Positions 14,231-37,371 of a stretch of 49,723 nucleotides of DNA are shown here, in pieces. The stretch's first letter is position 1; every line of letters starts with the position of its first letter. The position numbers were made by a program, and so were the translations under genes. The notes under the pieces were generated by a model. That model saw only the letters and a list, made by a program, of their open reading frames with translations, had not been told where the DNA came from and did no database searches. The DNA is from Cytophagales bacterium (GTDB lineage Bacteria > Bacteroidota > Bacteroidia > Cytophagales > CCMP332), in the NCBI GenBank assembly GCA_028279065.1, contig JANQSY010000032.1, positions 1 to 49,723 on the forward strand. The letters run 5' to 3'.

Positions 14231-14575
14231 ATGGGAAAATATTCAATGGGGGAGTTTGAGGAGATCGTAATGCTGACAGTCGCTGTGCTGTACGATGAGG
14301 CCTATGGGATCAGCATCAAGAATGAGATCGAAGAAAGGGTGGGGCGCAAGGTCAGTGTTGGAGCCATGCGAACCGCTCTTTCAAGACTTGAAAAGAAAGG
14401 ATTCCTAAGCTCAAACCTTGGTGAAGCCACTGCGGTAAGAGGAGGGAAACGAAAAAGGTATTACAAGGTCACCCCTTATGGGCAAAAAGCCCTGGCCAAG
14501 ACCATGGAGGTCAGAAAGCAGCTTTGGGAGGCAATCCCAAAGGTCGCATGGGATATCAAGCTTCAATATGCCTGA
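14231..14575 (+). CDS. PadR-family transcriptional regulator 1
   Basis: 114 residues forming a winged helix: EEIVMLTVAVLYDEAYG, the recognition region VSVGAMRTALSRLEKKGFL, and the wing GKRKRYYKVTPYG, all characteristic of PadR. PadR proteins are usually repressors of a linked transporter gene. Its stop overlaps the start of the permease gene by 8 bp, so the two are translationally coupled and the permease is the obvious regulatory target. The C-terminal helix is short, as in subfamily 2 PadR proteins. Confidence 0.9.
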   Translation: MGKYSMGEFEEIVMLTVAVLYDEAYGISIKNEIEERVGRKVSVGAMRTALSRLEKKGFLSSNLGEATAVRGGKRKRYYKVTPYGQKALAKTMEVRKQLWEAIPKVAWDIKLQYA

Positions 14576-17171
14576 ACCCCAAAACCATAGACCACCCTCT
14601 TGGGCAAGAAGATTCCTGAAATGGTTTTGCGATCCGGCTATGATCGAAGACCTGGAAGGAGACCTCAATGAACTATTTAATGAACGAAGCAAAACAAACC
14701 CGAAATCTGCCCGAAGGGCCTATATGATGGACGTCCTTAAACTTTTCAGACCTGGGATCATTAGAAATCTTTCCTTCAATAATCAGCTTTCCCATCCGGG
14801 AATGATAAAAAATTACTGGATCACTTCTCTCAGGCACGCCGTTAAGCATAAATCATACACCCTGATCAACATCCTTGGGCTCGTAGTGGGACTGTCCTCA
14901 AGTCTAATGATCAACCTTTGGGTAAACGACGAACTCGCAATGGACCGGTTCCATAGCAAAGGTGATCGGCTTTATGCCGTCTACCGAAACATGGTTCAAA
15001 GCAGTGGCGAGATCAATACCACCAAGGCCGTTCCTCAGCCTCTTCATGCTGTGCTGGAGGAAGAGTATCCTGAAGTTGAAAGGGTTGTGATGATGAGTTG
15101 GTCTTTCGAAAGCCTTATCGAATCAGGAGAGAAAAAGGAATTCGAAACAGGCCGTATGGTGACCAAGGATTTCTTTGAACTATTCAGCTATCCTATAGTG
15201 AAGGGAAATAGAAGAACCGCCCTGTTAAACCCAACTAACATTTTGATCTCTGAAAGGCTTGCTACAAAGTATTTCGGCCCTTCTTGGGCAACTTTGGACA
15301 GTCTGATCGGAAGCAGGATCACTTTGGACAATGAGGAGGCCTTTCAGGTAGCAGGGGTATTTGAGACTCCGGGAACCAATTCAAGCTGGAAGTTTGATTT
15401 TTTGCTTCCGGCTCAACAATACATCAAGGATAACGAATGGATAAGGAGCTGGTATAATGGAGGGTTTAGGATGTACCTGACCCTAAATGACCCGGGACAA
15501 TTTGAAGCGGTAAGCCAAAGGATACGATCCGAGGTCAACGATCACACTGAAAGCGAAGCTGATGAACCCATCATAATGCAAAAATTTTCGAATCGCTATC
15601 TGTTTGGAACGTTTGAAAATGGAGTGCCCGTGTCCGGAAGAATGGAATATGTCAGGATTCTCAGGTTCGTTTCAATCTTCCTGGTACTCATTTGCTCCAT
15701 CAATTTCCTCAATATTACCACGGCAAGATCGGGAGGAAGAGTAAAAGAAACAGGACTACGAAAAGTTCTTGGCTCTTATAAATCATCCCTTCGGTTTCAA
15801 TTCCTGATGGAAGCTTTCATGACGACCTCGGTTTCCGTACTCCTGGCCATACTCGTCGTAAAGCTTATACTGCCAGCTTTCATCAATATCACTGGTAGAG
15901 AGCTGTCCTTCAATCTACTGAAGGCAAACACATCAATTATTTTGATGGCATCACTGTTTATAATAAGCTTATTATCTGCCATTTACCCAATCTTTGTCCT
16001 GCCAAAACTTAATATCTCAGAATCTATAAAGGGGCAGGTCAAGTTTTCTTGGAAAACCCATGGCCTGAGAAAGGGATTGGTTGTTTTTCAGTTCGGCATT
16101 TCGATCTTTCTGATCATTAGCTCAATGGTCATCAGCAACCAGGTCGATTATATTATGAATAAGAATCTTGGGTTGGAAAGAGAGAACATCATCATGATAG
16201 ATCTTATGGATGGCGTACGGAACAAGTTGGGTGTTTACAGGGGAGAAGTAAGCCGAATACCCCAGGTAAGCTCTATGACCACAACCACTGGTAATCCTTT
16301 GAGCATCCGCCGCTCAACAGGAGGAGCAGAATGGGAAGGCAAAGAACCAAATGAGGTTCTTGAGACCTATGTTCTCATCGTAGGGGATGATTTTAAAAAA
16401 ACCCTTGACATCGAAATATTGGAAGGAAGGACATTCGATTCCAAAATGGGCCAGGACACCTCCAAATTCCTTATCAACGAAACGGCCAAAAGGTTGATGG
16501 GGCTTGAGAACCCCATAAATTCAAAATTCTCTGCCTATGGTATCGATGGCCATATAATCGGGGTTGTCAGGGATTTCCATATGGCCAGTCTTTATGATCC
16601 AATTGAACCACTGTTGATCATTTATGACCCAAACAGAACATCATTGGCACATATTAGGATCAAGGGGGATATTCAAAAAGCCTTGAATGATATCGAAAAT
16701 ATCCATGACAAAATGGAACCGGATTTCCCTTTCGAGTATCTGTTCATGGATCAAGAGTATGCAGCAGAATACAAGAATGAACTTATGATAAGCACCTTGG
16801 CCAAAGCATTTACCGTAATTTCAATCTTCCTAAGTTGCTTGGGACTGTTTGGCTTAAGTGCTTTTTCAGCCAGCCAAAGGACGCGGGAAATCGGCATACG
16901 GAAAGTTCTGGGGGCTAATATTCCGGGCATTATGTTCCGCCTTACCAAGGGATACCTTTCCCTGATTCTAGTTTCCTTGATCATAGCCATTCCACTTTCG
17001 TATTACTTTTCGAAAGACTGGTTGCAGAACTTTTCCTTTCGCACAAGCATTGGGGTCGAGATATTCATTTTTTCCGGTTTGGCAGCGATTTTGATCGGGG
17101 CATTAACTGTAAGTATTAAATCCTACCAGGCAGCTAATGCTAATCCTGTGGACAAGCTTAGAACAGAGTAG
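14568..17171 (+). CDS. MacB/FtsX-type ABC transporter permease 1
   Basis: 867 residues from the ATG at 14568 (an earlier ATG at 14478 lies inside the PadR gene). An N-terminal permease-prefix domain (ARRFLKWFCDPAMIEDLEGD) leads into a first helix near residue 105, a periplasmic MacB_PCD domain, an FtsX block of three helices (about 365-490), a second MacB_PCD and a second FtsX block (about 740-865). The REIGIRKVLGA and ETGLRKVLG signatures of FtsX permeases are present. No ATPase is encoded next to it; this family normally borrows a LolD/MacB-like ATPase. A substrate such as a peptide or lipid cannot be predicted. Confidence 0.9.
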   Translation: MPEPQNHRPPSWARRFLKWFCDPAMIEDLEGDLNELFNERSKTNPKSARRAYMMDVLKLFRPGIIRNLSFNNQLSHPGMIKNYWITSLRHAVKHKSYTLINILGLVVGLSSSLMINLWVNDELAMDRFHSKGDRLYAVYRNMVQSSGEINTTKAVPQPLHAVLEEEYPEVERVVMMSWSFESLIESGEKKEFETGRMVTKDFFELFSYPIVKGNRRTALLNPTNILISERLATKYFGPSWATLDSLIGSRITLDNEEAFQVAGVFETPGTNSSWKFDFLLPAQQYIKDNEWIRSWYNGGFRMYLTLNDPGQFEAVSQRIRSEVNDHTESEADEPIIMQKFSNRYLFGTFENGVPVSGRMEYVRILRFVSIFLVLICSINFLNITTARSGGRVKETGLRKVLGSYKSSLRFQFLMEAFMTTSVSVLLAILVVKLILPAFINITGRELSFNLLKANTSIILMASLFIISLLSAIYPIFVLPKLNISESIKGQVKFSWKTHGLRKGLVVFQFGISIFLIISSMVISNQVDYIMNKNLGLERENIIMIDLMDGVRNKLGVYRGEVSRIPQVSSMTTTTGNPLSIRRSTGGAEWEGKEPNEVLETYVLIVGDDFKKTLDIEILEGRTFDSKMGQDTSKFLINETAKRLMGLENPINSKFSAYGIDGHIIGVVRDFHMASLYDPIEPLLIIYDPNRTSLAHIRIKGDIQKALNDIENIHDKMEPDFPFEYLFMDQEYAAEYKNELMISTLAKAFTVISIFLSCLGLFGLSAFSASQRTREIGIRKVLGANIPGIMFRLTKGYLSLILVSLIIAIPLSYYFSKDWLQNFSFRTSIGVEIFIFSGLAAILIGALTVSIKSYQAANANPVDKLRTE

Positions 17172-22685: not shown

Positions 22686-23027
22686 ATGATCTCAAAGAAT
22701 TTAACCGCCGCATCCACCAAACCCATTATTCTGGGAATACTCAAGCAGGGTAATAGCTATGGCTATCTCATCATCAAGAAGGTTAAAGAACTCTCCGGAG
22801 GTAGTATGGAATGGTCGGACGGTATGCTATACCCGGTATTGCACCGTCTGGAGAAGGACAAGCTGATCCAGTCCAAATGGACCATGAGCGACAATGCCAG
22901 GCCAAGAAAGTACTACAGGATCACAGAAGCCGGCAAGAAGGCCCTGGCTGAGGAGAAGAAACAATGGCTTCAGATCAATGCAGTCTTGAACGAGATCTGG
23001 GATATTAAAACCAGCAGGATACTTTGA
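22686..23027 (+). CDS. PadR-family transcriptional regulator 2
   Basis: 113 residues with the PadR winged helix: KPIILGILKQGNSYGYLIIK, the recognition segment WSDGMLYPVLHRLEKDKLI, and the wing ARPRKYYRITEAGKKAL. It is only distantly similar to PadR 1 in this window, so the two cassettes are not a recent tandem copy. Its TGA is 2 bp before the permease ATG, giving the same PadR-permease architecture as at 14231-17171. Confidence 0.9.
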   Translation: MISKNLTAASTKPIILGILKQGNSYGYLIIKKVKELSGGSMEWSDGMLYPVLHRLEKDKLIQSKWTMSDNARPRKYYRITEAGKKALAEEKKQWLQINAVLNEIWDIKTSRIL

Positions 23028-23029
23028 GC

Positions 23030-25651
23030 ATGTTCGATCTCGACCAATCAATAAAGGAATGGCTCAAGCTATTCAGAAGGCACCCGGCCTTCGGACATGG
23101 CTCCGTCCAGGAAATGGAAGTCCACCTCAGGGATCATATCGACGATCTCATTTCAGCGGGAAAAGGGGAAAAAGAGGCATTCGAATTGGCTGTATCAGAG
23201 TTTGGTGAGATCAGACCCATGGCAGAGGAGGAATTCGAAAACCTGAGAAGGAAGTCTCGATTTATTTCCATCAGTCATTCTTCATTGTTTTACAATTACC
23301 TCAAGAGCGCGACCAGGAACATCAAGAAACATAAACTCTTTTCTTTCATTAATCTGCTGGGATTGACAATGGGCCTGACCATAGTCCTGTTGATCGGTCT
23401 TTTCGTATCCGATGAGTTGAGCTTTGATCAATTCCATGCAAAGAAGGACAGAATCTACAGGGTGGTTGAAAATCAGTACTATGAAGGGCAGGAGGTATTC
23501 CCCGTGGCAGTGACCCCAACGGGTCTGGGACCGGCATTGGTAGAGACTTATCCAGAGGTCCTGAATCAAACCAGGGTCAGCAGAGAGGTCTACACGTTTG
23601 AACTGGGAGAAAAAAAGATCCGGGAAAGGGGCGGGGTGATGGTGGATGCGACCTTCTTCGAGATACTCTCATATCCATTGCTTCGGGGAGACCTGGAAAA
23701 ATTCGATAAGCATCTTAACAGCCTGATTCTTTGTGAGGCCATGGCTGAAAAGTACTTCCCCGATGAGGATCCCATTGGAAAAACGATCAGCCTAAGCGGT
23801 GAAGAATATATCATATATGGGATCTTAAAAGACATCCCAAGAAATTCTCACCTCCAATTTAAGTACGCCACCAACTTCAAAAAATACGTTTCCGAAAACT
23901 CGGACCGAGCCAATAACTTCTCAACGAACTGGCTCTATACCTACGTTGAGGTGGTCGAAGACCATCAACTGGATTCGCTCAACAGCAAGGTCGAACACAC
24001 GATCAAGGATAATAATGAAGGCTCTGTAACAGATATCTATTTCCAGCCGGTCCCTGAGATCTATCTGGGCACCGTTGACTTTGTAGTAGAGACCAACACC
24101 AAAGGTGAGATGCTGTATGTCAAGGTATTCTCCATGGTCGCGATCTTCATATTGCTGATATCCTGTATCAATTTCATGAATCTCTCCACTGCCAGATCCA
24201 CCAACAGGGCCAAGGAAGTGGGATTGAGAAAAACCATTGGCGCCAATCGAACTCAGCTGATCTTCCAGTTCTTGAGTGAATCCATCCTTTTGAGCCTGAT
24301 CGCAATGGTTTTCGCGGTGATCATCGCCACCTTGATGCTTCCGAGTTTCAATGAGATCACCCATAAAGAAATGGAGATCAACTCGTTGATCGGGTCTGAT
24401 CTTGGCTTGAAATTGTTCTTGGGATTACTGATCTCCGCCCTGATCACAGGGCTTATAGCCGGAAGTTATCCCGCGATGTATCTGAGTTCAATCCAACCAA
24501 CTCAAATACTTAGTTCACAAGTAGTTATAGTAAAAAAAAGATTCGGATTAAGGCGGACCCTGGTAGTACTCCAATTCATGATCTCGGTGTCTCTGATCAT
24601 TGGGACTATCGTGGTTTACCAGCAACTGGATTATATCCGAAACATGGATATCGGCTTCAACAAGGAAAATATCATCTATCTAGATGTCACTCGGAAAAAG
24701 GCTCGTCTTTTTGCCGCAGAGATGGGGGGTAAGCCCGGAGTGGTTTCAGTTGGACTATCGAATCGACATCCGGCCTATATTCTTAGCAGTTCAAGCGGAT
24801 TTCAATGGCCCGGAAAAGACCTGGAAAAGAAATTCCTGATGCATTACATGTCAATGGATGAGAATTATTTCCCCACTATGGAAATGAGAATGGTGGAGGG
24901 CAGGAATTTCTTCCATACTGATACCCTGGTCGTGATCATCAATGAACGGGCGTTGGCGATGATGGATCTGGAGAATCCGATTGGCAAGAAACTCTATGGC
25001 GCTTATGATGATAGCGTGGCCGCAACCATAGTGGGAGTGGTCAAGGATTTCAATTTCAAGTCCGTTCATACCCCTGTAGAGCCTTTGCTGGTCTTTAAAG
25101 GAGGGCCCGAGAGCTTGGGAATGGTCTTCATCAAATATGAGAATGAAGCAAGGGAAAGTATAAAAGGCACAATTGACGGGGTGTATAAGGATGTATTTCC
25201 AGACGGTGATCTAAACTTCTATTTCCTTGATGATGATTTTGATGAACTTTATGAAGCTGAGGAGGCCACTGGCAAATTGTCCGGCTATTTTGCTGCCTTT
25301 GCCATTCTGATCTCCTGTTTAGGATTGTTCGGTCTGGTATCCTATGCCGCAGAGCAAAGGGTAAGGGAAATCGGTATCAGAAAGGTTTACGGAGCAAGCG
25401 TTCGCAATCTTTTTATTCTTCAAGCCTATGATTTCATCCGATTGGTGGTGCTATCCCTGTTGTTTTCGATCCCCATAGGATGGTACGCCATGAGCGATTG
25501 GTTGGAAAACTACGCTTACAGGGTGGATCTATCGATCTGGGTCTTCATGGGATCGGCCTTGATCGCCATCCTGATATCCATACTCACCGTTAGCTATCAA
25601 ACCATACGCTCAGCCCTAAGAAATCCTGCTGACGCGATCAGGAGCATTTGA
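23030..25651 (+). CDS. MacB/FtsX-type ABC transporter permease 2
   Basis: 873 residues from the ATG just after PadR 2. The first 75 residues are a permease-prefix domain (FGHGSVQEMEVHLRDHIDDL). Then come a first helix (LFSFINLLGLTMGLTIVLLI), a MacB_PCD domain, an FtsX block with EVGLRKTIGA, a second MacB_PCD, and a second FtsX block with REIGIRKVYGAS. The arrangement matches permease 1. No ATPase is adjacent. These permeases span the inner membrane and probably drive extracytoplasmic conformational change. The PadR partner likely represses it. Confidence 0.9.
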   Translation: MFDLDQSIKEWLKLFRRHPAFGHGSVQEMEVHLRDHIDDLISAGKGEKEAFELAVSEFGEIRPMAEEEFENLRRKSRFISISHSSLFYNYLKSATRNIKKHKLFSFINLLGLTMGLTIVLLIGLFVSDELSFDQFHAKKDRIYRVVENQYYEGQEVFPVAVTPTGLGPALVETYPEVLNQTRVSREVYTFELGEKKIRERGGVMVDATFFEILSYPLLRGDLEKFDKHLNSLILCEAMAEKYFPDEDPIGKTISLSGEEYIIYGILKDIPRNSHLQFKYATNFKKYVSENSDRANNFSTNWLYTYVEVVEDHQLDSLNSKVEHTIKDNNEGSVTDIYFQPVPEIYLGTVDFVVETNTKGEMLYVKVFSMVAIFILLISCINFMNLSTARSTNRAKEVGLRKTIGANRTQLIFQFLSESILLSLIAMVFAVIIATLMLPSFNEITHKEMEINSLIGSDLGLKLFLGLLISALITGLIAGSYPAMYLSSIQPTQILSSQVVIVKKRFGLRRTLVVLQFMISVSLIIGTIVVYQQLDYIRNMDIGFNKENIIYLDVTRKKARLFAAEMGGKPGVVSVGLSNRHPAYILSSSSGFQWPGKDLEKKFLMHYMSMDENYFPTMEMRMVEGRNFFHTDTLVVIINERALAMMDLENPIGKKLYGAYDDSVAATIVGVVKDFNFKSVHTPVEPLLVFKGGPESLGMVFIKYENEARESIKGTIDGVYKDVFPDGDLNFYFLDDDFDELYEAEEATGKLSGYFAAFAILISCLGLFGLVSYAAEQRVREIGIRKVYGASVRNLFILQAYDFIRLVVLSLLFSIPIGWYAMSDWLENYAYRVDLSIWVFMGSALIAILISILTVSYQTIRSALRNPADAIRSI

Positions 25652-25746: not shown

Positions 25747-25938
25747 ATGAAGCACTTCATTATAGTATTGGTTGTAGGAATGCTTACTCTGGCCATTATG
25801 CTGTTGCTATATCGGCCCGAAGTGATGGAGGATGTCTGGCTGTGGTTGATCGGATTGATAGGGACCATTATTGGGGCCTTTAAAAAAATGATCGAAGGCC
25901 TTCAGAAGTACTTCAAAAAATTGGATCCTAATCCATAA
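25747..25938 (+). CDS. Small two-helix membrane protein, first gene of the 25.7-35.6 kb cluster
   Basis: 63 residues from the ATG at 25747 (an earlier start at 25648 runs through the permease stop region and is less likely). Two hydrophobic helices (FIIVLVVGMLTLAIMLLLY and WLWLIGLIGTIIGAFKKM) are followed by a lysine-rich amphipathic C-terminus, FKKMIEGLQKYFKK. The shape is holin-like, but nothing else supports lysis, and I do not assign it. It is followed 15 bp later by a larger membrane protein. Confidence 0.6.
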   Translation: MKHFIIVLVVGMLTLAIMLLLYRPEVMEDVWLWLIGLIGTIIGAFKKMIEGLQKYFKKLDPNP

Positions 25939-25953
25939 ACAAATATTGCTGCT

Positions 25954-26922
25954 ATGGAATCTAAACCTAAACCATCTCTTTTAAAGATCATTTCCTACAT
26001 CGTTCTGGGAGTTCTGTTCCTTTCAATTCTAGGGATATTCTTCATGGACGGATTTATGAAACAGCTTTCCAGAGTTGTAGGACTCCTGAGTTTACTTTTC
26101 TGGATTATTGTTTTCATTGGGATCAAGATCCCGGTCCTTTCCAAAAAGCCTCCGCATGTTCAGATCATTCTAGGGATCACCGTTTTTATTTTGATCATTT
26201 CCGTGGTAGGCACAATGTACCTTCTGGACAGTGGATTGGGTGTATTTACCGCCATTGGTTTTTTGGTGCTAATGGTCTGGATCAATGTCTTCCTTGGCTA
26301 CTTTATATGGGCTACATATTTCTATAACCTCAATTATGGGGTTTCCCAAGGGGTTTGGGCAAAAATTGAAGAAGAGAAAAAGAAGAAAGGGGAAGGAAAA
26401 CCCTATGACCCTGACACCTTGGGTGATGAGCCTCTGTATAACCCGTATGGCGACCAGACTTTCGGACTCCCTCCTGGCACGGTAAGGGGCATGATAGCCT
26501 TTTCCTTGCTTTTTGGGGGAACAGCCCTGCTGTTGGTCAACTTTGGCGTGGAGAGTGAGCTGGAAGCCAACAGCATTTTCAGGGATCAGTTTGAGTTTTT
26601 TAAGACCGCATTTCTGATGATGGTGGCTTTTTATTTTGGCAGCAGGTCACTGAAATATCTTACCGACTCCAAAGAAACCGATACGGATCAAAAGCACACC
26701 CCAAATGCCCAAAAGAAAGGCGAGGAATCCAGGTCTCTGCCTGATCCACCAAAGGATCCCAATGCAGGGGGAGGGAGCTCCTCAGGAGATGCTCCCAATC
26801 CAGTGCCCGGCGATGTAGTGTTGATCGATAGCACCGACCCAACAGGGGACAAAAGAGTTAAACCGGGAACAGAGCAGCCAATAATCCCAATTGATCCTAT
26901 GGCCAAACCCAGCGACTCCTGA
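25954..26922 (+). CDS. Multi-helix membrane protein with FYFGSRS motif, unknown function
   Basis: 322 residues. About four helices lie in the first 125 residues, then a basic loop (EEEKKKKGEGKPYD), then a module with PPGTVRGMIAFSLLFGGTAL and MMVAFYFGSRSLK (about 175-230). A G-T-V-R-x-x-x-A...FYFGSRS pattern recurs in otherwise unrelated bacterial membrane proteins, to my memory without a known role. The last 80 residues are Pro/Gly/Asp-rich and probably disordered. It is separated from the DUF4230 lipoprotein by 3 bp, so they are coupled. Confidence 0.65.
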   Translation: MESKPKPSLLKIISYIVLGVLFLSILGIFFMDGFMKQLSRVVGLLSLLFWIIVFIGIKIPVLSKKPPHVQIILGITVFILIISVVGTMYLLDSGLGVFTAIGFLVLMVWINVFLGYFIWATYFYNLNYGVSQGVWAKIEEEKKKKGEGKPYDPDTLGDEPLYNPYGDQTFGLPPGTVRGMIAFSLLFGGTALLLVNFGVESELEANSIFRDQFEFFKTAFLMMVAFYFGSRSLKYLTDSKETDTDQKHTPNAQKKGEESRSLPDPPKDPNAGGGSSSGDAPNPVPGDVVLIDSTDPTGDKRVKPGTEQPIIPIDPMAKPSDS

Positions 26923-26925
26923 TCC

Positions 26926-27510
26926 ATGAGATTCTTATTTCCCCTGGCTATTCTTTTGGTTTTCACCTGCGTTTCCTGCAAGGAGAAAAGGGGATTGGTA
27001 GTTGGAAAAATTCAGCAGGCCGCAAAATTGTCCACCACGGAGGTTACAGTGGAAAAACTGGTGTGGGGAGTCAAAAACAAAAGGATACTGTGGTTTATCA
27101 AATTGAATCAAGCAGATTTTCTGGCCAGGTCCAAGGCTATCATCAAAGCCGGCGTGGACTTGGACAAGATCAGGGAAGAGGATATCAAAATCGAAGGCAA
27201 CAAGATCAGTGTCACACTTCCTCATATTGAAATTATCAATTTCTCATACCCCGCAGAGGAATTTGAAGAGGTAGATATTCTGACTTCCAACGCATTCTCG
27301 ACCAAAATAAATCTTGACGACCAGGAGAAGTTCTTTCAGCAGGCTGAGATCGACATCCGAAACAGCCTGGAACATATGGGCATAGTAGAAACCACCAAGG
27401 AAAAGACCAGGGTACTGATGGAGGCCATGCTAAGGAACCTTGGCTATAAGGAGATCTACATTCATTTTAAGGATGGGCCACTGATAACCAAAATCCAGCT
27501 GGACTCATGA
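26926..27510 (+). CDS. DUF4230 lipoprotein
   Basis: 194 residues. A short signal ends TCVSCKEK, a relaxed Bacteroidota lipobox, so Cys19 is probably lipidated. The remainder is a complete DUF4230 domain: LVVGKIQQAAKLSTTEVTVE, AIIKAGVDLDKI, KISVTLPHIEII and a C-terminal helix KTRVLMEAMLRNLGYKEIYI. DUF4230 is widespread, membrane-associated and of unknown function. Its stop overlaps the start of the next gene by 4 bp, and the next gene is another DUF4230 member. Confidence 0.85.
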   Translation: MRFLFPLAILLVFTCVSCKEKRGLVVGKIQQAAKLSTTEVTVEKLVWGVKNKRILWFIKLNQADFLARSKAIIKAGVDLDKIREEDIKIEGNKISVTLPHIEIINFSYPAEEFEEVDILTSNAFSTKINLDDQEKFFQQAEIDIRNSLEHMGIVETTKEKTRVLMEAMLRNLGYKEIYIHFKDGPLITKIQLDS

Positions 27511-29456
27511 TAGCCTACCTACTGAAAAACTGGAAACTTTTGTTGGACCTGATCCTGGTTGTGGGGGGGATCGTATTAATTACCCTTTTCGATCCATTTG
27601 GGTTGTTTACCAGCTCAAAGCTCAAAAGCACTGCAAATCTTGTCACGAGCATCCGCGGAATAGGAGAGTTGGTCACGGCAGAATACTACGGAGAAGTTAT
27701 CTCCTCCCTCCATGACACCAAGATCAGCAATGTGGTCAGAGACGATCTGATCTCGAATTTCGAAAAATGCCACCGTGAGCTCAGGTATGTGATTGTAAGT
27801 GTTTTTCTGGATGATAGAAAGATCAATGGTAGCAACTGGAACAAAGTAGCAGATACGATCAAAAGTCGAGGTACCTATGATTCCCTTGAAAGCAATAGCG
27901 AACAGAATTACTTTACCACCCTATACGCCTTTTTGGCCGTACAGTATCTGGGCAAAACACCGGACAAGTATGTAAACCTCAAATCCAGCCCCATCAGTCT
28001 TCAAAAAAATACTGTCAAAAAAGTACTAAAAGAGCTTATTAAGGAAGATTTTAGAAAATACATAAAGGCTCTTGGAAAGAAGAAAAACGACATCGAAGAG
28101 GAGGATCTGGAGAGATTTATAAATGGTTTTCCCGAGGGTTTTGCAGGCATAACAGAGTTTCATCAATTTCTGAAGGATAATTGCATTTACGATAAAAAGA
28201 GCTGGAAAAAGGCCAAGAAAAAGGATATAGTATTTATTGGACGAGGTTGGGTCAAGGCGGGCTTCAGATTTGATCGATTGGATGAGTCCAACTTCTATTA
28301 TGACGAAGACGACAAACTTGTTCAGTTCTATGGATTAACCCCAGTCATTCTGGACAAAGACATCAACCCCTGGTTTATTCCCGAGGAGAAGATCAAGGGC
28401 TTTGAGCTGGTCGATGCTCCCAGAGGGGTAGGTTTCAAGCAAGCCAAATTGGTCAAGAAGAAATGCAAGGAAAAGTTGCTCGACCAAGCCAAGGGAGCAG
28501 GCATTATCAATTCTGCCCGAGACAATGGGAGGGAGGCACTCCGGAATTTTTTCAGCCTCCTGCTGGATGAACCCGAGCTGAGAGTGGAACTGCTGGACTT
28601 GCCCTATAAGGATGAGTATGAAATGATAGCCGCCGATACCCTGGTAACGATTAAGGAGGCTCTACTCATTAGAGACATCTACCAGCAGATGAAGAGTAAA
28701 CAGGAATCCTTCACTCCTGGAGAACAAAAAAGGGAACTACGTAAGTTTCAGATCTTTTTAGGTCAGCTGCAAAAATTGAATTTCCTGAATTCTGATTTCC
28801 AATTCTCCATACTATCACTTGAGGCTGCTGAAGTATTGCAAAGAGGATTATATCTGACTCAAAACGATTATGACTCAATGAAATCCTCCAGAACAAAACT
28901 GGATACCTTGGAAAGCGGTGAACTCTCAACCAAACTGATGGTGGACTACACTTTCTTCGATGACTACAATCAATTTATCCGGCAATACAACCAAATGCTG
29001 CTGGCCATAGATGATCATCTGGATGAGATCGCCTTCTTGAGAGAAGATACCCTGGACATCTCAAAGGATCAGGCACTGATGATCGGGCTAGATCTTGGAT
29101 CTAGCCATTTGTCCACGGAGATAATTAGCAGTTCCGGAGAACAGGCATACAGAATAACTCACAAAGAGGAAAAGGCCCCAAAATTCATCAGGCTTAGATA
29201 CCCGGATATTTCATTGAATAGGATAGATCTGAGTGGTGTCTCGGTATTCGAAACGGACTCTTTGGATTTGCGCGTAGGTGCATTGGTAACAGCATATAAG
29301 GAAGCTCACAAAAGCTCGGTTGACGATGAAACAGTATTTGATGCTGATGTAGACCTGATTTCCAAATTCAAAAGAGACAGCATAGAACGGGCGATCAAAC
29401 TTAAACCACTTCACAATATCCAGGAAGGACTCCGGGTATTGGCCATCAACAATTAA
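27507..29456 (+). CDS. Large DUF4230-related membrane protein with C-terminal extension
   Basis: 649 residues. One N-terminal helix (LLLDLILVVGGIVLITLF) is followed by STANLVTSIRGIGELVTAEYY, and by IGRGWVKAGFRFDRLD, aligning with the IKAGVDLDKI of the preceding gene. Between these two DUF4230 segments sits a large, mostly helical insertion (about 75-240), and the second half of the protein (about 360-649) has no family I can name. It is probably anchored in the inner membrane facing outward. It is 12 bp from the CHAP amidase gene. Confidence 0.7.
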   Translation: MIAYLLKNWKLLLDLILVVGGIVLITLFDPFGLFTSSKLKSTANLVTSIRGIGELVTAEYYGEVISSLHDTKISNVVRDDLISNFEKCHRELRYVIVSVFLDDRKINGSNWNKVADTIKSRGTYDSLESNSEQNYFTTLYAFLAVQYLGKTPDKYVNLKSSPISLQKNTVKKVLKELIKEDFRKYIKALGKKKNDIEEEDLERFINGFPEGFAGITEFHQFLKDNCIYDKKSWKKAKKKDIVFIGRGWVKAGFRFDRLDESNFYYDEDDKLVQFYGLTPVILDKDINPWFIPEEKIKGFELVDAPRGVGFKQAKLVKKKCKEKLLDQAKGAGIINSARDNGREALRNFFSLLLDEPELRVELLDLPYKDEYEMIAADTLVTIKEALLIRDIYQQMKSKQESFTPGEQKRELRKFQIFLGQLQKLNFLNSDFQFSILSLEAAEVLQRGLYLTQNDYDSMKSSRTKLDTLESGELSTKLMVDYTFFDDYNQFIRQYNQMLLAIDDHLDEIAFLREDTLDISKDQALMIGLDLGSSHLSTEIISSSGEQAYRITHKEEKAPKFIRLRYPDISLNRIDLSGVSVFETDSLDLRVGALVTAYKEAHKSSVDDETVFDADVDLISKFKRDSIERAIKLKPLHNIQEGLRVLAINN

Positions 29457-29468
29457 CCTCAAAGAAAT

Positions 29469-30257
29469 ATGGTAAAGAATCACTACATACAAGAGCTGAA
29501 AACAGATTCCCCCTTGATCCGAAAGGGTCAAAAGGGCATGGACGTGATAAAGGTCCAGGAATGGATCAACCTATGGCAATGGGTGGATACTAAGTGGAAG
29601 ATAGGTATTGCGAGGGACGGAGATTTTGGAAGAGATACAGAAGCCGCAGTCAGGAAATTCCAGGATTTTCATGGGCTCTCAAACGATGGCATAGTGGGTA
29701 ACAATACTTGGCGGAAGCTAACCGAGCCAATGAGGAAAGCTTTTACCCGCATTGAAAATGAGAAATCACTAAGAAAACTTATTGTGGCCTATGCCAGGCA
29801 GCACCTTGCCAATTCACCCAGGGAATTCAAATCCAATATTGGGCCTTGGGTACGGGCCTACATGGATGGCAATCAAGGACACTTGCAGCCATGGTGTATG
29901 GGATTTGCACAAACCATACTGGACCAGGCAGCCTTCACTATTGAAGACTCCCTGATTAGTTATATGCCCAGGACGGTCTCTTGTGATGTATTGGGAAAAT
30001 TCGGTTTGAAGAATGGTCAGCTCATCGAGAAAGCCAAGTTAAAGCCCGATCTGATAGAGCCAGGAGACTTCTTCCTGGTTTACGCAAAGGCAAAGGTAGA
30101 TTGGATCCATGTAGGAATAGTGACCGGAGTTGAGGGCGATTGGATCCAGACCATAGAGGGCAACACCAATGATTCAGGAAGCAGAGAGGGAATCGAGGTT
30201 TGCGAAAGAGAACGCAATTACGACACCAAGAAGATCGATATTTATAGGGTGACATAA
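29469..30257 (+). CDS. Peptidoglycan-binding plus CHAP-type amidase
   Basis: 262 residues. A PG_binding_1-type domain (about 15-85; GDFGRDTEAAVRKFQDFHGL, GIVGNNTWRKL) precedes an NlpC/P60- or CHAP-type cysteine hydrolase with WCMGFAQTI (Cys143), DWIHVGIVTG (His214) and IEGNTND (Glu230 or Asn232). Such enzymes cleave peptidoglycan peptides. No signal peptide is visible, so export would need a holin-like or other route, or the enzyme acts after lysis. It is the only gene in the cluster with a clear cell-wall target. Confidence 0.85.
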   Translation: MVKNHYIQELKTDSPLIRKGQKGMDVIKVQEWINLWQWVDTKWKIGIARDGDFGRDTEAAVRKFQDFHGLSNDGIVGNNTWRKLTEPMRKAFTRIENEKSLRKLIVAYARQHLANSPREFKSNIGPWVRAYMDGNQGHLQPWCMGFAQTILDQAAFTIEDSLISYMPRTVSCDVLGKFGLKNGQLIEKAKLKPDLIEPGDFFLVYAKAKVDWIHVGIVTGVEGDWIQTIEGNTNDSGSREGIEVCERERNYDTKKIDIYRVT

Positions 30258-30448
30258 TTGCCATTATGTGATAACTCCTCTGTCGAGTACATCCAGGCAC
30301 TATCCGAAAAATACCTAAACCAATACATCTTTACTTATGAAACTTAAGTTTGAAATAATACCCACCCATATTCAGAACTAGCCTATGATGATAAGTTTGG
30401 TTCTCACCAAACTATATTGTTACAGTGATAATGACTTGAACTAACAGT

Positions 30449-31195
30449 ATGAAGATCCACAAGTACTATTTGCCCATATTCTCCTGGAAATCATCCAAAA
30501 TATTTGCCATCGGTTTGTTGACTTTGGCGATATCCAATGACTCCCTCGTAGCGCAATGTTCGGCGACTGTGAAATCCGATAGCGGATCGGAATTTCCCTA
30601 TCAACACAGATCCAACCGATGCGAAGGATTCTATGAGGCACAGGTTTCAGCTCCAAGCATTGAGGTTGTCGGGTTTTATAATGGTCAATTCGCATTCGAT
30701 CAAAAACAAGATGAAGTGATTACAATTTCTTTGATGCGAGAAGATTTTTCTGAATGGAATATTCAAGCAATAGGAATTCCTCTGGATTACCATTATCGAA
30801 TGGATGCCGGTTTTGGCGATGGCGGCAGACTGCTCTGGTCGACAAGGGAGGTTATCTATCCAAACCTGATTGGCAAAAAGTCCATTGGGGTATATGCATG
30901 GCAGAAGTCAGGAAATGTAACTTACTACTCGCCCTTGTCTGTCAGCACGAAGTACCTAAATGATTTGAGTGATGGAGGGCTACGTTTAATGGTTAGGGCC
31001 GCCACGTCGGTCAATGAGGTATACTGGAGATCCGGTAACGAAAGCTGGAATCGAATCAATAAAAACTATGGAGCTGGTCAAAGTGTAGAAATCCAAATTC
31101 CTTCTTCAGATGAAAAAGAACTAATCATTGAAATTAAGATGAAAGAAAGATCTTCCGGAAGCTGGATTCCCAAGAAGGTTTATCTTAAGCTATGA
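30449..31195 (+). CDS. Secreted hypothetical protein
   Basis: 248 residues. A long signal peptide ends near SLVAQC. The mature part contains a beta-rich repeat-free domain with FYEAQVSAPSIEVVGFYNG, and a WNRINKNYGAGQSVEIQIPS stretch; no family is recognised. It begins 191 bp after the CHAP gene, the widest gap in the cluster, so it may start a second transcript. Its last four bases overlap the next gene. Confidence 0.6.
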   Translation: MKIHKYYLPIFSWKSSKIFAIGLLTLAISNDSLVAQCSATVKSDSGSEFPYQHRSNRCEGFYEAQVSAPSIEVVGFYNGQFAFDQKQDEVITISLMREDFSEWNIQAIGIPLDYHYRMDAGFGDGGRLLWSTREVIYPNLIGKKSIGVYAWQKSGNVTYYSPLSVSTKYLNDLSDGGLRLMVRAATSVNEVYWRSGNESWNRINKNYGAGQSVEIQIPSSDEKELIIEIKMKERSSGSWIPKKVYLKL

Positions 31196-32262
31196 ATCGT
31201 AAAAAAAGGCAGGAACTTACTGCTGCAAAGAACAAGTATGTAGAGGCCTCGGCGAGAGCCATCCTTGAGGGCAATATTCAAGATGCAGAGGAATCGATGA
31301 AAGCAGTCGGCTCTATTGACAAAGTTCTCGTCAATTCTGAAAGATCAAACTTTATCTTCCCCCTAGTTATTGGACTGGTTTGCACCATAATTGTTGGTCT
31401 AGCTGCAACAATCAAAGTTCCAACCACTTTCGTGAGAATTTCCATGGACACCGACTTTGTCTCCTTTGAGATGCTCAGTGATTATAAACCAGATGATGGA
31501 AAAATCCAGGTAGCAGAGGTGACTATGATGAACTTGGGAGGTGTATCCAGTATTTATACCGACCAAGAATTAGAGCGGAAAGAGCTACACAAAATAGATA
31601 TCAGGGAAGGTGGCCCTATTGAATTTCACTTAAAACAAATTGGAAAAAACTCCAGAGTAGAACTTAATAAGCGTGCTGCCAACTATGAAATATGGAATTT
31701 AAAACAAGGAGTATCACTTATTGAAATTCAGGCCGATTCGGCAATTTTTGAAATGGAGTTTGATGAAAAATACATTAATGATACAATTGATGTACCAATC
31801 CCGGAATCCTTTAATATCTCTACAAGGGATTCAACAAACCTACCGACCCAAATAGAATTCTTCCGCCCGTCAGATATTTCACTTGTCAATCTTCAGGGAG
31901 ACAATCTTTCATTTGCAAAAGAAGATCCACCTGGCTCAAGCAATTTTATCTCTGGGATAAGATCTGGAAAAATTCAGTTATTCGATCAAAAATATGTTCA
32001 TGAAGTAACTCAAGGTGACTTTGTTAAATTAAAAGACTTTCAGGGTAAGAGACTTGAGATCAGAAGCAAAGAAGATCAGTATCAAGTGATCTTGGAGGGC
32101 AAGGTTAGCCAACTCAAAGCAGGGCCGGAAGGTCATCTTGAAGAGTTCAAGCCCAGTTGGTTAGAGTATATGTTTAATCAACAGTTCATAGGTTTTCTAT
32201 GGAGTGCTATGGTGTTTGTTTGGGGATTCATTTGGAGTGTCCATAGACTATTTTCAAAATGA
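31192..32262 (+). CDS. Bitopic membrane protein of unknown function
   Basis: 356 residues. A basic, coiled-coil-like cytoplasmic N-terminus (1-52) leads to a helix FIFPLVIGLVCTIIVGLAA (about 55-75), an approximately 250-residue extracytoplasmic domain with beta character (VRISMDTDFVSFEML, VSLIEIQADSAIFEMEF), and a second helix FLWSAMVFVWGFIWSV close to the C-terminus. I do not recognise the family. It overlaps both neighbours by 4 bp, so it is almost certainly made with the secreted protein and the first peptidase. Confidence 0.65.
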   Translation: MNRKKRQELTAAKNKYVEASARAILEGNIQDAEESMKAVGSIDKVLVNSERSNFIFPLVIGLVCTIIVGLAATIKVPTTFVRISMDTDFVSFEMLSDYKPDDGKIQVAEVTMMNLGGVSSIYTDQELERKELHKIDIREGGPIEFHLKQIGKNSRVELNKRAANYEIWNLKQGVSLIEIQADSAIFEMEFDEKYINDTIDVPIPESFNISTRDSTNLPTQIEFFRPSDISLVNLQGDNLSFAKEDPPGSSNFISGIRSGKIQLFDQKYVHEVTQGDFVKLKDFQGKRLEIRSKEDQYQVILEGKVSQLKAGPEGHLEEFKPSWLEYMFNQQFIGFLWSAMVFVWGFIWSVHRLFSK

Positions 32263-34202
32263 TTCGGAGAATTACACTGCTGCTTGGGTGTTTGATGCTC
32301 AGAACAATTGCACTGAGCCAAACCGGCTTTGAAATAAGTCAGCAGTTAGCACACAATACGGTTCGCATCCATACATTGTTCGAGGATGGAAGTGATGAGA
32401 ATGGTTTTGGAATAATCATATCTGAAAGGGAAGGCACCTTGTATGTTGCAACAGCAAATCATGTGGTGGAGAGTGGTCCTCAAGGAAGATCCATTGAAGT
32501 ATCCTTTAACGAGAAACCAGGACAATCTTTCTCCGCCACATACATTAATGGAAACTCCAATGACAATATAGACTTAGCAGTCGTTCGCATCCCGAAACCA
32601 GAGTGGTTGAATTGGAGTCAGAAATGTCTGGCAGAAGAAGCCAAAATTGGTGATGCTGTTTGGTTTATTGGTCGGAACAAGGAGTGGTATATACCAAGTG
32701 TCGCTGAAGCCGGTGCGATCCATTCCATTGACCCATTCTTTGACTTCTTAATAAACGTTGAGATAGACAAAGTTCAACGAGGCTCGTCAGGCGCTCCTGC
32801 GATCAATCATTTGGGAATTTTTGGAATTATCTTAACAGATCAGCAAACCAGTAAGGTTATATCTATCCAAAAATTAAAACAGATAGTACAACAAGCATGG
32901 TCACTACCATTTCATCTCTCAAAATATGAAAGAAACCTGCCGACTTCCTCCAAGGCTGTAAACTGGCTTCATCCTAGCATCGATAAATCATCCTTCTCCT
33001 TTGGAAAGCAAATAGACCTGACCATCGTTACCAGAGGTTTCTGGGAGTGGGTTGATCGGATTGAGTTTTTTGTAAATAATGTTCGTATTGGAATTGATAC
33101 AGAAGTAAGGGAGGAAACCAGCGGTGGTAATCTGTATCACTACGGAGAAAGTTATTGGCATCCGGAATCCGCAGGCACTTACAACCTTCATGCTGTCGCT
33201 TATAGTACCGACGGAAGCGCTCATACCTCTGAAGTAGTTTCAGTAAGCGTACTTAAAAGCATAGATCCAGGAGGACTAATAGTTGCCATAGAGCCATCCA
33301 GGAATGACACATCTATGTTTCTCCTTAATTATGATCTCAAACAGGTCGCGGTATTACACCCTCCAAAGAATAAGATTGTAAAAAGGATAGAACTGCCTCA
33401 TCAGAAACCGGTAGCTATGCAATACTCTCCAAATTCAAATGAATTGTACATAATATATCAGTACCAGGGTGTCATAACTGCTTTGAACACAAACACCTGG
33501 GTTTCCAGAACCTTGAAGTTTTCAGATACCGAAGATGGCCTCGACTTAGCATTGGATGAAGACCAGGATCGCATTCTGGTACTAACACAGTCTAAGGTTC
33601 TGTATTCAATTCAGGTTAGCACAGGAACTGTCCAATGGAGCCAAAATGATTTCATTGGGGACAGGGTCGTATACAATTCTGATGACCAGAGTCTTTTTAG
33701 CGTATTATATGGTCAGAATGTTATGTTATCAAGTTATTCAGTCAGCGAAAGCCATGTTGTACCGAAAAAGAGTATTTCTCAGGTAGGGGTAAATTGTAAT
33801 GACCTGTATCTCTCACCTGATAATCGATTTCTCCTTCTTCCATGTGGTAGTGGGAATAGCGATCAAGGATATGAAGTTCATCAATACAATTCCAAAGATA
33901 TTACTGATAGAATTGGGTCATTTGAATTTGGCGCCTATCCTCAATCTATTTGCTTCTCTGGAATCAATCTGATGTTCGCTAGTAACAGCGACTTTACCGA
34001 CGATTACATATACGCAATTGATTTGAATACAGAGAACACAGACTATAGATTCGACTTTCCTAATTCAGATTGCAATGCAATTCTAAAAACCAGTGCCAGC
34101 AACAAATACCTTCTGGCATTTAGTTACAATAATCATCCAGGCGCAGAATCACCTGACCACCGCATATTCGTCTACGACTTACAACATGAAAATCAAGATT
34201 AG
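32259..34202 (+). CDS. Trypsin-fold serine peptidase with beta-propeller-like C-terminus
   Basis: 647 residues. A signal peptide (1-20) precedes an S1-fold domain whose catalytic triad can be read as His68 (ATANHVV), Asp105 (NIDLAVVR) and Ser177 (QRGSSGAP). An Ig-like segment (about 240-330, KQIDLTIVTRGFWEWVDRI) follows, then blade-like repeats up to the C-terminus (KPVAMQYSPNSNELYIIY, LALDEDQDRILVLTQS, DLYLSPDNRFLLLPC). By family it is a periplasmic or surface protease. It overlaps the next peptidase gene by 17 bp. Confidence 0.8.
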   Translation: MIRRITLLLGCLMLRTIALSQTGFEISQQLAHNTVRIHTLFEDGSDENGFGIIISEREGTLYVATANHVVESGPQGRSIEVSFNEKPGQSFSATYINGNSNDNIDLAVVRIPKPEWLNWSQKCLAEEAKIGDAVWFIGRNKEWYIPSVAEAGAIHSIDPFFDFLINVEIDKVQRGSSGAPAINHLGIFGIILTDQQTSKVISIQKLKQIVQQAWSLPFHLSKYERNLPTSSKAVNWLHPSIDKSSFSFGKQIDLTIVTRGFWEWVDRIEFFVNNVRIGIDTEVREETSGGNLYHYGESYWHPESAGTYNLHAVAYSTDGSAHTSEVVSVSVLKSIDPGGLIVAIEPSRNDTSMFLLNYDLKQVAVLHPPKNKIVKRIELPHQKPVAMQYSPNSNELYIIYQYQGVITALNTNTWVSRTLKFSDTEDGLDLALDEDQDRILVLTQSKVLYSIQVSTGTVQWSQNDFIGDRVVYNSDDQSLFSVLYGQNVMLSSYSVSESHVVPKKSISQVGVNCNDLYLSPDNRFLLLPCGSGNSDQGYEVHQYNSKDITDRIGSFEFGAYPQSICFSGINLMFASNSDFTDDYIYAIDLNTENTDYRFDFPNSDCNAILKTSASNKYLLAFSYNNHPGAESPDHRIFVYDLQHENQD

Positions 34203-35568
34203 ACATCTGCTCTTTGCCTTGACTCTATTGATGAGTTGTGGCTCAGCATTCTCAAAAACGACAGGTGCCCAACTAGCATATGACCTGAAATCCAATATAG
34301 TTCGAGTCACCAGTACCAATAATTGTGAAGCGGATGACGACAACGGATTTGGATTTATAGTTTCGGAAACTTGCGACCATTTCTACATAATCACGGCATA
34401 CCATGTGGTTTGTGGACCAGATGCAGAAGCATTTGTGAGTTTCATTTCTGACCAAAACCAAAAGTATCCAGCCGTAATTAAGAACAGCTATGCAGACATG
34501 GCTCTGCTAAAAGTAGAAAGACCAGCAGGGTATACATGGAATCCATACAGCTTAACTGCTAATTATAAAAAAAGAGACAAACTCAGAATCATCGGCAAAG
34601 AGGGCGCTTGGAGAATTACAACTGATGACCAACTTGGCAAAATCGTTGGTATAGATGAAGTGAATAAGGAGATCAAGATACAAATGGCCGTGGCCAAAGG
34701 TTCTTCTGGAGGTCCCGTACTGAATTCTACCGGGATTATTGGCATGGTTGTTAGAAGCGGAGATCTGGCTACAGTAATTTCTATCGAAGCTATTGCCCGA
34801 CAAGTCAGAGAATGGGATTATCGCTTTCAGCTGGAAGCGACTAATGTTGACCCTAGTGGGGTTAGGATCAGTACAGCCCAGGTTAGAAAGCTAGGATCAG
34901 ATTCAAATTTTGTGGAATTAGAAAAATTTCTGGCCATCTACAGCATACTTTACTGGCAGAGTTGTAATCAAAATATGCCAGAGGTGAGGCCTGGAAACAA
35001 CTTTGGGCGTAGTGATCAAAACTTTGATCTGAGTTGCTATTATGGGACCGATTGGGAACATGCGCCAGGGGGAATTCTACTTGACTGTTTTTTGGAGCCC
35101 ACCACAGTCTATAATCCGGTAACGGGTGAGGAAGTTGAAACAACTCAGCTGATAGCAAACGAAGACTATTGGTACAATTTTAATTGGGATGTTATTCTGG
35201 GCTACCCAGTTGAGATCACGGTTAACCCTCAGCATGGAGATTATAATTTGATCGATGATATCGTTATAGACGAGAACTGCCAGGAAGCGACTGGTGAGAG
35301 TTGTTATTATCCATCCTATGCTTTGGAGCTTGGTGGACTATGGGTGAACTCGAGTATTGAACTGGTCGTTTCAAGAGGTTATACTTTTTGGTATCCTGAT
35401 GGTAATGCTGACTCTAAGGATCATTGGGTTGTGTATTTGGGCAGCAGAGAGCACTTAGGCTATGAAGATCTGAGATCTGAGATCATTGAACGAGCCAGAA
35501 TCATTGGTATTGGCGGAACCGACATTGAACAAATAGCATGGCGGTTTTATACTTATGAGGAGGAATGA
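34186..35568 (+). CDS. Second trypsin-fold serine peptidase, possible lipoprotein
   Basis: 460 residues from the ATG at 34186; longer readings start inside the previous gene. The signal ends at LLMSCGS, so Cys18 might be lipidated. The triad is His73 (ITAYHVV), Asp104 (SYADMALLKV) and Ser174 (AKGSSGGPVLN). The remaining 260 residues have several cysteines (CNQN, LSCYYG, LLDCF, ENCQEATGESCYY) and no family I know; extracytoplasmic disulfides are likely. It differs clearly from the first peptidase outside the catalytic half, so this is not a recent duplication. Confidence 0.8.
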   Translation: MKIKIRHLLFALTLLMSCGSAFSKTTGAQLAYDLKSNIVRVTSTNNCEADDDNGFGFIVSETCDHFYIITAYHVVCGPDAEAFVSFISDQNQKYPAVIKNSYADMALLKVERPAGYTWNPYSLTANYKKRDKLRIIGKEGAWRITTDDQLGKIVGIDEVNKEIKIQMAVAKGSSGGPVLNSTGIIGMVVRSGDLATVISIEAIARQVREWDYRFQLEATNVDPSGVRISTAQVRKLGSDSNFVELEKFLAIYSILYWQSCNQNMPEVRPGNNFGRSDQNFDLSCYYGTDWEHAPGGILLDCFLEPTTVYNPVTGEEVETTQLIANEDYWYNFNWDVILGYPVEITVNPQHGDYNLIDDIVIDENCQEATGESCYYPSYALELGGLWVNSSIELVVSRGYTFWYPDGNADSKDHWVVYLGSREHLGYEDLRSEIIERARIIGIGGTDIEQIAWRFYTYEEE

Positions 35569-37116: not shown

Positions 37117-37371
37117 CTAAGAGCTAAGCCAAACTTTGAGGCGTTTAGCCAGGAACAATCTTCCCCAATGGGTTTTAAGATACTTTTCACGGCGAACAGC
37201 ATCATCCTTGGAAACACAAGCCTCAAAGTATATTAGTTCCAGAGGTCTGCGATGTGCAGTGGACCTAACTTTTCCTGACTCATGTTGTTTCATTCTTAAA
37301 TCTAAATCCCTCGTGAAGCCCACATATCGATTCCCATCTTTCCTACTGACCAAGACATAGGTGTAATACAT
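37117..37371 (-). CDS. GIY-YIG nuclease-superfamily protein
   Basis: 84 residues. The fold signature YYTYVLVSRKDGNRYVGF, then RMKQHESGK, LIYFEACVSKDDAVRREKYL and KTHWGR, fits the small UPF0213/URI-like GIY-YIG proteins, usually 80-95 residues long. The catalytic Tyr, Arg and Glu positions are present. Bacteroidota often carry many copies; their substrates are unclear and DNA cleavage is not certain. It stands alone, between palindrome-rich DNA and the S12 gene. Confidence 0.9.
   Translation of the reverse strand: MYYTYVLVSRKDGNRYVGFTRDLDLRMKQHESGKVRSTAHRRPLELIYFEACVSKDDAVRREKYLKTHWGRLFLAKRLKVWLSS

Follow-up and report, generated by a model that had tools for sequence, protein, structure and literature searches.

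What do nine genes encoding membrane proteins, lipoproteins, a cell-wall hydrolase, and proteases do side by side in a bacterium of the Cytophagales? The question is raised by contig JANQSY010000032.1 (assembly GCA_028279065.1), of which the stretch analysed, called the window hereafter, spans 49,723 nucleotides. Open reading frame calls and translations confirm what an original prediction from the letters alone had described: nine codirectional genes (g1 to g9) on the + strand between 25747 and 35568, with the domains announced. That prediction took them for a coordinated machine and offered three functions: envelope quality control, antagonism, and a programmed lysis or defence response. Our analysis shows that the nine genes are two units, A (g1-g5, 25747-30257) and B (g6-g9), and that the membrane, lipoprotein, and wall-hydrolase genes of the former are indeed one conserved module, to which the trypsin-like genes do not belong. 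The architecture of unit A is well supported; its mechanism we infer from the protein sequences. We give nearly an even chance to g1-g5 forming a cassette of the host that brings about lysis or protein release in the way of a type 10 secretion system (T10SS), i.e., of the host-encoded holin, endolysin, and spanin cassettes that free toxins by lysing part of the cell population (PMC10847048).

Unit A starts with g1 (25747-25938; 63 amino acids), a holin-like membrane protein, and continues with g2 (25954-26922; 322 amino acids), which has multiple transmembrane (TM) segments, g3 (26926-27510; 194 amino acids), a DUF4230 lipoprotein, g4 (27507-29456; 649 amino acids), an inner-membrane protein with one N-terminal TM segment and a split DUF4230 domain, and g5 (29469-30257; 262 amino acids), an endolysin-like hydrolase with PG_binding_1 and CHAP domains and no signal peptide. 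The junctions from g1 to g9 measure, in order, +15, +3, -4, +12, +191, -4, -4, and -17 bp: the tight spacing initially claimed holds for seven of the eight (overlaps of 4-17 bp or gaps of 3-15 bp) and breaks down between g5 and g6. A domain search of the window proteins gave no family match above the cut-off for g1, g2, g6, and g7.

The relatives of these genes are found together far beyond the window. A first contig scan with g4 as sole query gave no match; g4 searched against 118 related genomes gave five further carriers, whose contigs hold g1-g2-g3-g4, except for one (G012) with g3-g4, a hydrolase, and g2. A profile of the membrane part of g2 retrieved 80 loci from species genomes. The locus set comprises 84 distinct loci (86 minus the duplicates L014=L052 and L016=L087), which were scored with purpose-built profiles: g1 is present in 72, g2 in 84, g3 in 69, and g4 in 68. 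Whether homologues stand together elsewhere, the check that the original prediction had put forward, can thus be answered positively for g1-g5, of which g1-g4 co-occur at close to 70 distinct loci, in Bacteroidota plus a small number of neighbouring phyla, and negatively, as a rule, for g6-g9. The order g1-g2-g3-g4 is near-constant, with the genes adjacent and on one strand in almost all loci; g3 and g4 overlap by a median of 4 bp and are never separated by more than 70 bp. Loci lacking g3 or g4 are mostly at contig ends or belong to a second variant, with a coiled-coil protein, described below. Unit A was found in 14 of the 390 genomes sampled from the window's order, and is absent from one relative of the window genome in the same genus and from one in the same family. 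Its nearest relatives, L017 and L018, have g1-g5 with an identical CHAP architecture and g5 in the same position, and form a starred clade with the window on the g3 tree. The window g3 has its nearest relatives in metagenome-assembled genomes (MAGs) labelled Bacteroidales, which suggests, such labels being doubtful as usual, that the unit was acquired horizontally. Comparison with empty sites in the genus and family relatives (G001 and G002) was uninformative: the contig of G001 stops at the flank, and the gene order of G002 is different. In Cyclobacteriaceae the unit has a stable chromosomal place, commonly flanked by metabolic genes. One locus (L047) lies on a contig labelled as a Rickettsiales MAG; its g3 and the Marinoscillum g3 are sisters, and the contig is probably misbinned.

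The most variable part of the unit is its enzyme. Across loci the peptidoglycan hydrolases are of the CHAP, Amidase_2, GH25, Muramidase, and Amidase_3 types, and their class requires 13 changes on the g3 tree on a constant scaffold. Since the catalytic motifs were retained throughout these changes, selection seems to have acted on wall cleavage and not on one particular bond. In g5, PG_binding_1 matches at 5e-13 and CHAP (PF05257) is sub-threshold (22 vs 26 bits); the CHAP region also matches the phage endolysin family phrog_9589 at 9e-12, and the Cys (QPWCMGF) and His (WIHVGIV) residues are visible in the sequence. The free hydrolases found intact are of three kinds (about 20 Amidase_2+SH3, one GH25+SH3, and three CHAP). 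Apart from two with ambiguous non-ATG starts, they show no signal peptide even when the frame is read at its longest, a trait typical of endolysins. They are encoded just 5' of g1 when they are Amidase_2+SH3 or GH25+SH3, and just 3' of g4 when they are PG_binding_1+CHAP. Other hydrolases are part of g2 relatives: Muramidase in 43 loci, fused behind the two motifs of g2 in nearly all, and Amidase_3, alone or together with Muramidase, in 13 loci.

These two motifs, GLPPGTxRG and FYFG, are invariant among g2 relatives, which have 3-6 TM segments (the full motif of g2 reads GLPPGTxRGxIA...FLMMIAFYFGxxSL). The region after FYFG has 3.6 K/R vs 1.6 D/E, and the short loop before it 0.7 vs 3.1. This charge bias, with the acidic loop on the opposite side, places the C-terminus, and thereby the site of the fusions, in the cytoplasm. 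The g1 protein has an N-terminal MKR or MKH, one strong TM segment, the hairpin motif NPExLxxxWLWxxGxxG (W, G, and G invariant across 20 aligned rows), and a basic tail. Most g1 relatives have a C-terminal DUF5675 domain after the hairpin, with a GC motif kept in 62 of 67 cases, which may resemble YkuD-type enzymes; searching the PDB by sequence with a DUF5675-bearing g1 gave weak, chance-level rows only.

Both g3 and g4 pass the gathering score of DUF4230 (PF14014; 27 bits), with 97.8 bits (8e-28) and 29.7 bits (8e-7), respectively. The lipobox Cys of g3 is invariant in 45 relatives. In g4, the single N-terminal TM segment is followed by a DUF4230 domain interrupted by a helical insert (ITAEYYGEV ... 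GRGWVKAGF ... DINPWFIP). The AlphaFold models have a predicted local distance difference test score of 82.6 (g3) and 75.4 (g4). Foldseek searches of both models in the PDB and of g3 in BFVD gave nothing with E < 0.001, and a PDB sequence search with g3 gave weak rows at the level of chance. The VIA fold rows of the g3 model peak at Z 6.6, with unrelated folds; FliF RBM3 (Z 5.2) and SpoIIIAH-SpoIIQ (Z 4.8) occur amid many unrelated rows, and this resemblance to ring-building modules is a lead only. The accessible parts of the literature on DUF4230 and DUF5675 describe no such system; the only paper found with a study of a DUF4230 protein reports that deletion of this Streptococcus mutans protein had no significant effect on biofilms (PMC13041782).

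How could these parts work together? Without a signal peptide, a hydrolase has no way to the wall unless the inner membrane is opened, and a small protein with a TM hairpin, a second membrane protein, and an outer/inner-membrane pair in one operon make the logic of holin, endolysin, and spanin the simplest reading. The hydrolase, whether free or held by g2 on its cytoplasmic side, would be kept in the cytoplasm until, at a controlled time, g1, g2, or both form pores that make the inner membrane permeable. Once released it would cut the wall, and g3 and g4, attached to the outer and inner membrane, might join or break the outer membrane in the manner of spanins. The outcome would be the release of cytoplasmic cargo from a subpopulation of cells. 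Among the functions initially offered, programmed lysis is the one that best fits unit A, while we found no specific support for envelope quality control or antagonism. In the T10SS of Serratia, the genes of the lytic cassette are named ChiWXYZ. With this cassette and with YenLC of Yersinia entomophaga, unit A has in common that a membrane protein of small size is encoded with a hydrolase lacking a signal peptide and with a pair of an inner-membrane protein and a lipoprotein, the latter predicted, in unit A, to be in the outer membrane (PMC10847048). Like a T10SS, it is encoded outside a phage genome. In contrast, its membrane parts have no found sequence relation to holins or spanins, the DUF4230 proteins are far larger than Rz/Rz1, the hydrolases are often fused to g2, and the hosts are Bacteroidota and neighbouring phyla, for which a single literature search returned no T10SS paper. 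Because its holin and spanin features are matters of anatomy, without a match in family or fold, we liken unit A to T10SS and do not count it as a member. Neither its membrane parts nor its DUF4230 parts have a detectable relation to those of T10SS-type cassettes. A more specific proposal, in which unit A is a programmed-lysis and cargo-release system of the host (Bacteroidota and neighbouring phyla) and not of a phage, the DUF4230 pair is an unrelated solution to the spanin function, and g1/g2 are a new type of holin able to carry fused endolysins, is possible, if somewhat doubtful.

A number of observations weigh against such a lytic role. Searches of domain and phage families gave no holin match for g1 and g2; g1 has the size of a holin and a hairpin, and its topology is uncertain past the first TM segment. 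The lipoprotein g3, predicted to be in the outer membrane, and the inner-membrane g4 have the anatomy of a spanin pair without spanin homology, and DUF4230 matches neither the fold of spanins nor another solved fold; in most loci g4 has about 450-770 amino acids, far more than known i-spanins. Six g3-bearing loci show none of the hydrolases that were sought, apart from DUF5675, and some of them end at contig ends. Finally, no cargo gene is linked to unit A, beside which no family other than hydrolases was recognised as recurring in unrelated loci, and the window genome has no sheath gene of a contractile injection system.

If unit A is a module by itself, what are the remaining genes? Between g5 and g6 lie 191 bp (30258-30448) that contain a hairpin (30394-30413) and two copies of TAAGTTTG on the + strand, resembling the -7 element of Bacteroidota, at 30345 and 30392. 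About 0.04 are expected by chance in the gap, the window having nine sites on the + strand and 24 on both; the gap could hold the start of a second transcription unit, a match to a consensus being no proof of a promoter. Unit B then comprises g6 (30449-31195; 248 amino acids), secreted and assigned to no family, g7 (31192-32262; 356 amino acids), with TM segments at both ends and a domain in the middle, g8 (32259-34202; 647 amino acids), a secreted Trypsin_2 peptidase with a propeller-like C-terminal part, and g9 (34186-35568; 460 amino acids), a second secreted Trypsin_2 peptidase. Both peptidases score above the cut-off of Trypsin_2 (PF13365; 27.6 bits), with 38.7 bits (2e-9) for g8 and 59.4 bits (8e-16) for g9, and their His/Asp/Ser motifs are visible (ANHVV/DLAVV/GSSGAP and AYHVV/DMALL/GSSGGP). 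The set, i.e., g6, g7, and one or two secreted trypsin-fold proteins, was found at four loci (30449-35568 of the window, L056:2662-7992, L101:8437-12596, and L106:5132-9545), two of them beside transposases, integrases, or a relaxase. It adjoins unit A at just two loci, the window and L056, where the two are divergent. Of the 390 genomes of the order sample, 3 have g6: the window genome, G006, and G183. In G006 (L101), unit B stands between transposase/integrase genes and FRG and SIR2-TPR genes matching candidate defence models, far from the unit A of that genome; in G183 (L106), which has no unit A, it has a relaxase and an integrase nearby. That all nine genes act as one machine of envelope proteolysis and wall hydrolysis is accordingly the least probable of the alternatives, and a very remote one. 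Their common strand and their tight spacing on both sides of the single gap speak for it, as do the second adjacency in L056, which would be rare under random placement, and the fact that G006, one of the two other genomes of the order sample with unit B, has unit A elsewhere. Yet, besides the gap and the separate occurrences in G006 and G183, the closest relatives of the window's unit A (L017 and L018) have no trypsins, and unit B is also missing from L061, which the g3 tree places as sister to L056. Being absent from the closest relatives of unit A and found apart from it or without it, unit B is a separate mobile set of secreted proteases (two trypsins) with two helpers that happens to adjoin A, and a candidate for a mobile conflict system. 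Two adjacencies in different arrangements are nevertheless more than random placement easily gives.

The neighbourhood of unit B also bears on the idea that unit A is a phage-triggered defence by abortive lysis. Its parts are lysis-like, its distribution in the order is patchy, with no copy in the genus and family relatives, and in the window it adjoins a unit whose relatives in G006 neighbour the candidate-defence genes. We still judge this very unlikely: PADLOC gave nothing for g1, g3, g4, and g5, and only NsnC at E 0.034 for g2, there is no sensor gene, and the synteny with metabolic genes in Cyclobacteriaceae is unlike that of defence islands. Routine wall remodelling, such as autolysis or cell separation, without any release function, is improbable too, if less so. 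Peptidoglycan hydrolases and DUF5675 domains are found throughout and a promoter-like footprint is conserved in Cyclobacterium, whereas most genomes of the order do without unit A and the specificity for a given bond was exchanged repeatedly; routine autolysins, moreover, normally carry signal peptides. The weak rows to ring-building modules make a trans-envelope complex the main rival, although a rather unlikely one. In it, g3 and g4 would form a periplasmic structure and g1 and g2 its inner-membrane part, and the hydrolase would open the wall locally for the passage of the structure or for export. Such a complex would fit a large and conserved g4 with a periplasmic domain, the split DUF4230 architecture, the tethering of hydrolases to membrane proteins in most loci, and the stable position in Cyclobacteriaceae. 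On the other hand, the Z values of g3 do not even reach what unrelated models would be expected to give, the free hydrolases would require an export route of their own, and the module has neither a conserved substrate nor an ATPase to supply energy.

Is the unit simply a piece of phage? Phage lysis cassettes have exchangeable endolysins beside small membrane proteins, and phrog_9589 and other phage families match g5. Searches found no relatives of g2 or g3 in viral contigs and none of g2 in phage genomes, and no phage genes recurrently flank unit A, which argues against a phage lysis cassette or a prophage remnant. Another parallel is offered by the lysis cassette of Afp and the holin/lysin release of R-tailocins, where lysis genes free contractile particles (PMC12961389). 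Carriers of unit A have sheath genes more often than non-carriers, in the order sample (10/14 carriers vs 108/376 non-carriers, p 0.0015), in one sampled family, that of G187 (29/43 vs 57/153, p 0.0005), and across genera (17 of 22 carrier genera vs 29 of 62 others, p 0.02), in tests that ignore relatedness and genome size. This enrichment is a lead outside our claim. Unlike those cassettes, unit A does not adjoin sheath genes in any genome searched. We rejected contractile-injection cargo as its only purpose, because 14 of the 43 carriers in the one family, like the window genome, have no sheath. Reviews report that extracellular contractile injection systems exit by cell lysis (PMC12961389), and a study of Algoriphagus, in its accessible part, describes release upon lysis without naming lysis genes.

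Should the lytic reading hold, DUF4230 would be given a role, and host-encoded lytic release, beyond enterobacteria, would also exist in Bacteroidota, where it would be built from unrelated parts. Large cytoplasmic cargo of Bacteroidota, e.g., extracellular contractile injection systems, would moreover have an exit route open to testing. That enzymes cutting the wall were swapped repeatedly while the membrane scaffold stayed fixed is striking by itself.

The second variant of the unit (L058, L066, L070, L082, L086, L089, L091, L092, and L094-L096) has no DUF4230 pair that we could find. Instead, g2 is adjoined by a protein with a signal peptide, a coiled coil, and a C-terminal TM segment (L058:9477-10019, L066:4771-5277, L070:3409-3903, L086:9137-9610, L089:9305-9775, L096:5718-6170, and others), which is encoded between the g1-like protein and g2 where both exist. 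This variant extends to MAGs labelled Calditrichota, Kapabacteria, and Gemmatimonadetes.

Upstream of unit A, a vegetative -7 element was found 5' of 14 of 69 loci, without a common consensus promoter, and a sigma-54 scan gave a single site, at chance level. In Cyclobacterium, the promoter-like footprint TTTTTTTGA...TTTTTAATAATTAAATTTTG is kept 5' of g1 (L023, L031, L032, L036, L038, L040-L042, and L050). Elsewhere in the window, a small PadR-like regulator followed by an FtsX/MacB-like permease is present in two copies (14231-17171 and 22686-25651), the second of which stops 95 bp 5' of g1 and could share its transcript. Beyond g9, a short reading frame on the - strand (37117-37371) resembles, by eye, a protein with a GIY-YIG nuclease domain.

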